Source of the DNA: Cryomorphaceae bacterium
Lineage (GTDB): Bacteria > Bacteroidota > Bacteroidia > Flavobacteriales_D > Crocinitomicaceae
NCBI GenBank assembly: GCA_021299335.1
Contig: JAJTGF010000002.1
Coordinates: 1-63,970, forward strand
DNA length: 63,970 nucleotides
Direction: 5' to 3'
This document shows, piece by piece, positions 54,309-57,081 of the stretch. Position numbers and translations under genes: made by a program. The notes under the pieces are model-generated. The model saw only the letters and a list, made by a program, of their open reading frames with translations. It made no database searches and was not told the DNA's origin. Each line of letters starts with the position of its first letter. Position 1 is the stretch's first letter.

Positions 54309-54331
54309 GCGATATTCTCTTTTGAAAAGGT

Positions 54332-54339
54332 TAACTTTG
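54332..54339 (+). promoter_or_regulatory. putative -7 box (TAACTTTG) 4 nt upstream of GTG 54344
   Basis: Exact TAnnTTTG match. Confidence 0.6.
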
Positions 54340-54343
54340 GTAC

Positions 54344-55123
54344 GTGAAGAAACTCTACAAATACCTCCTTAATAAGCTCCCTCGGCCTTTACTTATTCGG
54401 CTGAGCTATCTTTTTCGTTTAGTTGCTCCGGTTTTGTACAAAGGAGAGGCCGTAAGTTGCCCCGTTTGTGAAAAATCTTTCTCTAAGTTTTTGTCGTATG
54501 GTTCGGAAGTGGCTCACCGCGAAAACGTACTTTGCCCCTATGACCTCACCCTAGAGCGCCACCGCCTCATGTGGCTCTACCTCAAAAACCACAGTAACTT
54601 TTTTACCCAAGAAAACCTGTCGGTGCTACATATGGCCCCTGAGCAGTGCTTCATAGATCGCTTCAAAGCACAAAAAAACCTCAACTACCTCACCGCAGAT
54701 CTCGTTTCACCTATCGCCGATCTCCATTTTGATTTACATCAAATTCCACTCGAAGACCAGCGTTTCGATGTCGTTTTTTGCAACCACGTCATGGAACATG
54801 TCCAAGACCCCATTCAGTGCATGTCAGAACTTTTCCGAGTGATGAAACCTGGCGGTTGGGCCATCATGCAAGTACCTCAAGATTTCTCGAGAGAGACTAC
54901 CTATGAAGACCCTACTATCATCACCGAAGCAGACCGCGAAAAGCATTACTGGCAAAAAGACCACGTGCGCTTATTCGGAAAAGATTACCCAACTTACCTT
55001 GAAAAAGTAGGTTTTGAAACGCAGGTTTTTGACTTTCATGCCCATTACTCACTAGAAGAAATCGAGCGCTTTCGACTCATGAAAAATGAAGTCTTGTATA
55101 TATTTAAAAAGCCCCTCCAATGA
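54344..55123 (+). CDS. class I SAM-dependent methyltransferase with Cys-rich N-terminal segment
   Basis: CPVCEKSF...CPYD; FDVVFCNHVMEHVQDPIQCMSELFRVMKPGGWAIMQVP. Confidence 0.88.
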   Translation: MKKLYKYLLNKLPRPLLIRLSYLFRLVAPVLYKGEAVSCPVCEKSFSKFLSYGSEVAHRENVLCPYDLTLERHRLMWLYLKNHSNFFTQENLSVLHMAPEQCFIDRFKAQKNLNYLTADLVSPIADLHFDLHQIPLEDQRFDVVFCNHVMEHVQDPIQCMSELFRVMKPGGWAIMQVPQDFSRETTYEDPTIITEADREKHYWQKDHVRLFGKDYPTYLEKVGFETQVFDFHAHYSLEEIERFRLMKNEVLYIFKKPLQ

Positions 55124-56091
55124 GAATTTTACTTTTTACGCTGTTGTTTAGTTCCAGCCTAACCTGGGGTCAAAAAAATATTTTCCTACATATTGATCCG
55201 CTTTTTGGAAGTCAACCTTTTGCACTGAACCAAACCTTTACAGGCAATGACGGCGTAGCCGTCAGCATAGAACATTTCAATTATTATTTGTCCGATGTCA
55301 AAATTTTTCACGACAACGGACAGCAAACCAACCTGCTCACCGACATCTGGTTAATCACTCCAACACAACACACCCTTTATTTGGGCTACTTCGCGATCCA
55401 ACAAATCGACTCCATTAATTTTACAATTGGTGTTCCAAAACGCTACAATACGCAAACGGGTGCGCTTGCTCAAGATATTTCTACATATCCAGAGATTCAT
55501 CCTCTGAGCTTTCAGAGTCCTTCCATGTATTGGGGTTGGTCTTTTGGCTACATGCACATGATTGCCGGTGGAAAGGCGGATAGCAACAATGATGGCGTTC
55601 CTAACGCCTACTTTGAACTGCACAACCTCGGCAATAACAACCAACAAAGCGTTACACTCCCTGCAATCCAGACAACAAGTGGCAATCAAATTGACTTACA
55701 TTACAACTGTCATGTTGACCGTTGGTTCAATCAAATGCCACTCTCAAGTGTGGGCGTTCTCCACGGAGAAACCGGGCTCAACCTAAGTGTCATGCAAAAT
55801 GTAAATACGCAAGATGTGTTTGCACTCAACCCAGCTGCAACGATCCAAGAAAATCACAATCTATTTGTTTCTTGGAAACAAACCCCTACTGAAATTACCA
55901 TTCATGGCATTCAAAATCAGGGTATTGAAAATTTTCAAGTCTTTTCCAATACGGGTCAAAAATTACTAGACGTGGACGTTCAAAATGCGGTGGCAAGCTT
56001 TCCACTCGATCGTTTGAGTAGTGGTTTTTACCTTGTGGGCGTTCAAGGCTCACATGGACAATTCCAATCTTTTAGAATCGTTAAACCATAA
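55120..56091 (+). CDS. MbnP-family protein with T9SS type A sorting domain
   Basis: IFLHIDPLFGSQPFALNQTFTGNDGVAVSIEHFNYYLSDVKIF; SPSMYWGWSFGYMHMIAGGKADSNNDG; C-term FQVFSNTGQKLLDV...LSSGFYLVGVQGSHGQFQSFRIVKP. Confidence 0.82.
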   Translation: MRILLFTLLFSSSLTWGQKNIFLHIDPLFGSQPFALNQTFTGNDGVAVSIEHFNYYLSDVKIFHDNGQQTNLLTDIWLITPTQHTLYLGYFAIQQIDSINFTIGVPKRYNTQTGALAQDISTYPEIHPLSFQSPSMYWGWSFGYMHMIAGGKADSNNDGVPNAYFELHNLGNNNQQSVTLPAIQTTSGNQIDLHYNCHVDRWFNQMPLSSVGVLHGETGLNLSVMQNVNTQDVFALNPAATIQENHNLFVSWKQTPTEITIHGIQNQGIENFQVFSNTGQKLLDVDVQNAVASFPLDRLSSGFYLVGVQGSHGQFQSFRIVKP

Positions 56092-57081
56092 ATGACGCTG
56101 CGCTTTTTATCCATAGCGCTTCTTTTGCTCGGCGGTTTTTTAACCCTCCGTTGCGGCCAAACCCAAGACCTCAATGCAAGTGTTTTGGTGCCAGCTCCTT
56201 CAGACAACCCTCAAAATACCGAGAAAATTGCTCTCGGCCGCAAGCTCTTTTTTGACACTCGACTTTCCTTAGATGGAACCGTTTCTTGTGCCACTTGCCA
56301 CGATCCAAAAAAAGCCTTCTGCGACCAAAGAAGCAAAAGTGTTGGCATTAAAGGGCAGCTCAGCGAACGCAATGCGCCTAGCATTCTCAATGCCGCTTTC
56401 TTGAAAACCGCCATGTTCGATGCGCATTTGGCTACACTTGAGTTACAAGCTATTGTACCCATTCAAGAGCCTGTAGAAATGGGGCACAACATGAAAAACC
56501 TGATCAAGCAATTGCGCCAAATTCCCGAATACCAAGCGGCGGCTCAGGCTATTTTTGGGCGAGACTTCGACGCTTGGGTGCTGACGCGCAGCCTTGGCGC
56601 TTTTGAACGCAGCCTACTTTCTTTGAACGCGCCATTTGATCAATACATGGCCGGCAATAAAAAGGCGATGAGTAAAGACCAACTTGCTGGGTGGCGCATT
56701 TTTTCTGACAAACTCTACTGCACCCAGTGTCATCCGGCACCTTATTTCACAACCTATGAAGCGGCCAACAATGGCTTATATGCGAGCTATGAAGGCCAAA
56801 CCGACCAGGGGCGTTTTCGGATACACCACGATTCATCGGACATTGGCAAATTTAAAATTCCATCGTTAAGAAACCTGCCACTCACCTATCCCTACATGCA
56901 CGACGGTAGTAAAAAATCTTTGGCGGAAGTTCTTGCACACTACCAACAAGGTGGAGCCAAACATCCACTGCAAGACCCACGGATTGTCGCATTTGAACTT
57001 TCGGAAAAAGAAAAAGCCCAGCTCCTCGATTTTTTTAGCGCTCTAGTCGATACTTCTTACTTGCGCAGAAACGGCTTTTAA
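56092..57081 (+). CDS. di-haem cytochrome c peroxidase / MauG-MbnH family lipoprotein
   Basis: Two haem motifs CATCH and CTQCH; lipobox-like TLRCG; KIALGRKLFFDTRLS. Confidence 0.93.
   Translation: MTLRFLSIALLLLGGFLTLRCGQTQDLNASVLVPAPSDNPQNTEKIALGRKLFFDTRLSLDGTVSCATCHDPKKAFCDQRSKSVGIKGQLSERNAPSILNAAFLKTAMFDAHLATLELQAIVPIQEPVEMGHNMKNLIKQLRQIPEYQAAAQAIFGRDFDAWVLTRSLGAFERSLLSLNAPFDQYMAGNKKAMSKDQLAGWRIFSDKLYCTQCHPAPYFTTYEAANNGLYASYEGQTDQGRFRIHHDSSDIGKFKIPSLRNLPLTYPYMHDGSKKSLAEVLAHYQQGGAKHPLQDPRIVAFELSEKEKAQLLDFFSALVDTSYLRRNGF

Follow-up and report, generated by a model that had tools for sequence, protein, structure and literature searches.

The closest described counterparts of the gene pair analyzed here are MbnP and MbnH of Methylosinus and Methylocystis (structures 7L6G and 6E1C; families TIGR04052 and TIGR04039; GenProp0940), which are encoded as an adjacent pair and whose MbnP has the same fold as the protein described below. 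In 7L6G, Manesis et al. reportedly found in 2021 that the first Trp of a WxW motif is converted to kynurenine, and a His and a Met are said to bind Cu(I). Two other methanotroph systems, CorA/CorB and MopE/SACCP, consist of a surface or secreted kynurenine-Cu(I) protein and a co-transcribed di-haem peroxidase-like protein, and thus provide a precedent for such an arrangement; by the descriptions in these papers, their ligands are WxH plus a second His, and they lack a type IX secretion (T9SS) domain (PMC3912023, PMC3423442). The di-haem enzyme MauG resembles the enzyme studied here in its fold, its Tyr axial ligand, and its Gln/Pro/Glu pocket, but it lies outside the MbnH clade in our tree and keeps Trp93 between its haems. 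BthA of Burkholderia has naturally lost the inter-haem Trp and has Tyr/His ligation, as does our enzyme, but it belongs to another branch and carries Ser at the Trp position; the sections of PMC6405878 drawn on here describe the roles of the pocket residues in MauG and BthA and do not describe an MbnP partner for BthA.

The window, a 63,970-nucleotide stretch of contig JAJTGF010000002.1 from a Cryomorphaceae bacterium (GCA_021299335.1), contains an MbnP/MbnH-type pair; it is a T9SS-exported form, widespread in the order. The source genome is a 1.8-Mb draft, 82% complete, and its relatives are Flavobacteriales, mostly Crocinitomicaceae. With the methanobactin-operon pair, the window pair shares the MxWxW motif and the His of MbnP; the two di-haem enzymes are also both Tyr ligated and fall in one clade. 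The window pair differs in its T9SS tail, in scoring below the equivalog cut-offs, in an enzyme without the inter-haem Trp, and in its genome: a first-pass annotation of the window had seen no methanobactin genes, and our search of the 82%-complete genome likewise found no match to MbnB (PF05114). We interpret the pair as an MbnP/MbnH copper-site system adapted to type IX secretion, with a probability of about 0.62. The features of the locus are as follows.

54344-55123, plus strand: SAM-dependent methyltransferase, 259 amino acids, GTG start (Methyltransf_11, 55 bits)
55120-56091, plus strand: MbnP-family protein with a T9SS tail, 323 amino acids (PF20243, 91.1 bits)
55120-55170, plus strand: predicted signal peptide, MbnP residues 1-17 (hydrophobic N-terminus; modeled as a helix over residues 2-15)
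55525-55539, plus strand: core motif M136-Y-W138-G-W140, by alignment the counterpart of GMAWNW in the 7L6G family
55621-55623, plus strand: His168, candidate copper ligand, which lines up with the MVHLGS/MVHVGS His of methanotroph MbnP
55762-55764, plus strand: His215, possible extra ligand of the tailed type, from conservation in the MbnP alignment
55885-56085, plus strand: T9SS type A C-terminal sorting domain, residues 256-322 (TIGR04183; fold match)
56092-57081, plus strand: MbnH-type di-haem enzyme, 329 amino acids (PF03150 CCP_MauG, 176.7 bits)
56152-56154, plus strand: Cys21, where the hydrophobic N-terminal stretch ends, in an atypical lipobox with Arg at position -1 (alignment)
56287-56301, plus strand: first haem c site, CATCH, residues 66-70, kept in all sequences compared
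56416-56418, plus strand: Phe109 at the inter-haem Trp position (MauG Trp93), by alignment
56446-56478, plus strand: distal pocket Gln119, Pro123, and Glu129, corresponding to MauG Gln103, Pro107, and Glu113
56719-56733, plus strand: second haem c site, CTQCH, residues 210-214, conserved
56941-56943, plus strand: Tyr284 at the axial Met position of CCP (MauG Tyr294 type), by alignment

Inspection of the sequence bore out the gene arrangement first described for the locus: the ATG of the di-haem ORF at 56092 directly abuts the TAA of the MbnP gene, and the methyltransferase gene overlaps the MbnP start by 4 bases (ATGA). Promoter and terminator scans of the locus gave matches no better than chance level. 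The methyltransferase is likely in the same transcription unit as the MbnP/di-haem pair in the window's clade. Just 5' of its GTG start lies TAACTTTG (54327-54346), which is conserved in six relatives and which we take to resemble a Bacteroidota -7 element; from its placement, a very short leader is possible.

The methyltransferase has a Zn-ribbon-like CPVC/CPYD motif at its N-terminus, is present in a single copy in the source genome, and has only generic database matches. In 71 of 76 close relatives, it immediately precedes the pair in the same orientation, and the outer flanks vary (aspS, trmE-like, sigma-factor-like, and other genes). Across the order-wide set, its only occurrences were at four loci of the window's family (L202, L203, L208, and L210) and not at those of other families. 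A Zn-ribbon methyltransferase (54344-55123) dedicated to the MbnP/di-haem cluster is a trait of one family only, and it may be uninvolved in copper.

The MbnP-like ORF proved to encode a true MbnP. Its PF20243 score is well above the Pfam cut-off of 27 bits, and structure prediction, which had been proposed as a check, gave an AlphaFold2 model (mean pLDDT, 86.3) with Methylosinus MbnP as its best match among solved structures. 7L6G accounts for the top six fold matches (E values of 5.6e-7 to 5.4e-6; moderate TM scores of 0.43-0.50), and T9SS tails are among the next. Against the NCBI equivalog TIGR04052, the protein scores 39.3 bits, with a cut-off of 140; it is outside the equivalog yet inside the wider Pfam family. 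In searches of the PDB, phmmer found no match to the window MbnP, a profile of untailed MbnPs gave a weak match to 7L6G, and a mixed-family profile gave matches confined to T9SS tails. The Methylocystis methanobactin-operon MbnP matches the crystallized Methylosinus protein with an E value of 1.5e-160, confirming the link made by the untailed profile. A tblastn search of plasmids with MbnP returned Deinococcus matches and, over the tail, a single weak match in Aeromonas.

The Trp-containing signature highlighted in the first-pass annotation, SPSMYWGWSFGYMHM, is present at residues 134-148. We aligned MbnPs from five phylogenetically distant sources, namely, the window, the second MbnP of the same genome, Deinococcus, Pseudoalteromonas, and a Methylocystis methanobactin operon, and M136-x-W138-x-W140 and H168 are common to all five. 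Among 178 MbnPs, including those of two methanobactin operons, M136, W138, and W140 are invariant and His168 is kept in 172, so that the positions of the predicted modified Trp and the candidate His ligand are conserved. One of the six without His168 is at L207 (3473-4432), where a tailed MbnP has Asn in its place and lacks a di-haem neighbor, possibly a loss of the modified site. Position 215 is His in 134/134 tailed relatives; in the untailed ones (n = 29) it is His in 17, Met in 10, and another residue in 2. The string GYMHM is typical of the window's clade only, with His146 in 69/74 sequences there and 2/60 elsewhere. By correspondence with the 7L6G site, we take W138 to be the kynurenine position and predict that it is kynurenine in the window MbnP. 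By the same correspondence, Met136 and His168 are candidate copper ligands, and the protein would be expected to bind copper.

Both ends of the protein point to export. A Sec signal peptide was called by eye and from the structure model, with cleavage probably before Gln18, which is invariant in the MbnP alignment. The proposed T9SS type A domain at the C-terminus was confirmed by TIGR04183, at 28.2 bits against a cut-off of 23 (31.2 bits in the genome-wide search); the Pfam T9SS model scored 15.9 bits, below its cut-off of 27. A profile search likewise matched the tail to solved T9SS tails, and fold comparison matched it to 8gl6 RemA-CTD (TM score, 0.82) and the mirolase CTD; the same tail model was matched in 28 of 34 relatives scanned. 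The window MbnP thus has the two marks of a T9SS type A cargo, a Sec signal peptide and a TIGR04183 tail. The source genome contains SprA, as three over-cut-off pieces on two contigs, and 47 T9SS tail proteins over the cut-off. These results suggest a cell-surface location for the window MbnP. Among the papers searched, none connects T9SS or Bacteroidetes with MbnP or with kynurenine.

The di-haem ORF contains both haem motifs reported for it, CATCH and CTQCH. MbnH (TIGR04039) is its best-scoring family, at 248 bits, yet below the cut-off of 362.85; this shortfall, like that of MbnP with TIGR04052, counts against our main reading. Its top fold match is MbnH 6E1C (E value, 5.5e-20). In the phylogeny that had been called for to separate MbnH from CCP, the enzyme groups with MbnH (6E1C and Methylocystis) and Deinococcus enzymes, apart from classical CCPs and MauG (support, 99.4/100); a larger tree supports the MbnH grouping at 0.989. 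Gln119, Pro123, and Glu129 are invariant in the di-haem enzyme alignment. All MbnP-linked enzymes compared have Tyr at position 284, apart from one with a gap there, whereas the CCPs 3o5c, 1iqc, and 3hq9 have the axial Met; where CCP carries His71, the window enzyme has Ile86, and the position is Ile/Val. We rejected an identity as a classical di-haem CCP on the basis of the tree placement, Tyr284 for Met, and Ile86 for His71. The first-pass annotation had stated that its reading would fall if the ligand and Trp positions were not conserved or if the enzyme clustered with classical CCPs; the positions are conserved and the enzyme groups with MbnH, and the reading therefore stands on both counts. 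The enzyme might still be a plain periplasmic H2O2 peroxidase, with MbnP as an unmodified surface metal scavenger, as its fold and peroxide pocket are common to CCPs. This seems quite unlikely given its position inside the MbnH clade, the exchange of both CCP residues, and the adjacency of the two genes across families.

The N-terminus of the enzyme had been called lipobox-like and the protein membrane-tethered. The conserved Cys is indeed there, as Cys21 is kept in 68/71 close relatives, but the small residue expected before it is not: position -1 is mostly Arg or Lys (LRC in the window), in contrast to Ser, Ala, or Gly in the Trp-containing comparison enzymes. Because this breaks the lipobox grammar, tethering by a lipobox is not supported, and an uncleaved signal anchor is just as likely.

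The inter-haem Trp seen in 6E1C is absent from the window enzyme, where the position is Phe109. Among 71 close relatives, the residue is Phe in 64, Tyr in 6, and Trp in 1, the last being the enzyme of an extra untailed pair at L109. The stretch around position 109 aligns without gaps with CCP, and some members of the branch lack any Trp. The enzymes without this Trp form a single branch of 114 members in the large tree (support, 0.987), all of which have Phe, Tyr, Arg, Leu, Thr, or Ser instead. A residue thought to be important for the chemistry has thus been lost from the window enzyme's branch, and the electron path must therefore differ from that of MauG. Outside the window's family, the gene after the tailed MbnP encodes solely a Trp-less enzyme at 23 loci and solely a Trp-containing enzyme at 11, whereas 20 loci have both enzymes. 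We tentatively suggest, without committing to it, that the Trp-less branch is dedicated to the T9SS-exported copper protein, that in some families a second, Trp-containing enzyme acts on the same MbnP, and that kynurenine would be formed through a different electron path. The first-pass annotation was right about the pair, the tail, and the residues and missed this branch.

Because the enzyme lacks the inter-haem Trp, it could instead install another oxidation on WxW (e.g., hydroxy-Trp or a crosslink), with copper held by other ligands or with a role in surface redox chemistry. The absence of the Trp from the entire 114-enzyme branch, monophyletic at 99.9/100 in a reduced set, and the invariance of His215 in the tailed type are consistent with this alternative; we regard it as unlikely, since MbnPs partnered by Trp-containing enzymes share the MxWxW motif and His168 and since BthA, with Ser at the inter-haem position, still forms bis-Fe(IV) (PMC6405878). 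Loss of the Trp could weaken Trp oxidation, contrary to our main explanation, and BthA is the counter-example.

Under our preferred reading of an MbnP/MbnH system adapted to type IX secretion, MbnP would enter the periplasm via its Sec signal peptide and meet the di-haem enzyme, which would be held there through either a signal anchor left uncleaved or a lipid anchor of an atypical kind. By analogy with MbnH/MbnP and CorA/MopE, the enzyme, with one open haem and one His/Tyr-ligated haem, would use peroxide to oxidize Trp138 to kynurenine. Kynurenine, Met136, His168, and perhaps His215 would then form a high-affinity Cu(I) site. The tail would direct MbnP to the SprA translocon for passage to the cell surface, and MbnP might take up or hand on copper there. 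This order of modification and export is presumptive.

T9SS-tailed MbnP with a di-haem neighbor is common across the sampled order, and this, together with a second, untailed pair in the same genome, had escaped the first-pass annotation. MbnP was found in 185/199 genomes of the order, and in a phylum sample the window MbnP finds relatives in 42/297 genomes. At 60 order-wide tailed loci, the MbnP ORF is of tailed size or cut by a contig end in all, and nearly all have a di-haem neighbor. Among 80 close loci, the two genes are adjacent in 71, and in five more the di-haem gene is cut by a contig end; only L115 clearly lacks it. At L134 the di-haem gene lies across a run of N, and an apparent 492-amino-acid MbnP/di-haem fusion there was rejected as a join produced by that run in the assembly. 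Two tandem tailed MbnP genes precede one Trp-less di-haem gene at L153 (3459-5453) and L161 (3551-5522). The second pair of the source genome is on contig C91 (6046-7856). There, too, the two families are adjacent, but the MbnP is untailed and lipoprotein-like (MHWGWNPGYIFM; 245 amino acids), and the enzyme (357 amino acids) has a canonical lipobox and keeps the inter-haem Trp.

No copper gene was found beside the window pair, and the 82%-complete source genome shows neither a multicopper oxidase nor an HYC_CC_PP protein; both points count against our main reading. Elsewhere, 18/63 loci of other families have copper genes beside the pair, which favors that reading; these genes encode multicopper oxidases, CusA-like proteins (a call that rests on sequence judgement), HYC_CC_PP proteins, and CopZ-like HMA proteins; in Deinococcus, the MbnP, di-haem, CopC, and CopD genes are close together. 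Multicopper-oxidase-like proteins adjoin tailed pairs at L153, L161, L166, L204, L209, and L210 and are possible copper clients of the tailed MbnP. Such neighbors, and a T9SS tail on one of the two scanned (at L153), would fit a tailed MbnP that acts not as an importer but as a copper donor to a surface, T9SS-borne multicopper oxidase. We give this little credence, as no multicopper oxidase was found in the 82%-complete source genome. The neighborhood of the pair at 14 loci, including L153, L154, and L155, encodes a small secreted protein. Several of these proteins contain an FCFPNCYPIG-type motif, and some end in a T9SS-like tail; the one scanned had no Pfam match.

Our findings suggest that many aquatic Flavobacteriales routinely bear kynurenine copper sites at their surface, so that such sites would not be a methanotroph specialty. 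The family also offers a large natural experiment on the need for the inter-haem Trp in oxidizing a protein Trp: the residue was lost in one branch and kept in its sister, and some 20 loci hold both enzyme types beside the same target protein. The Trp-less branch is the part most worth experiment.
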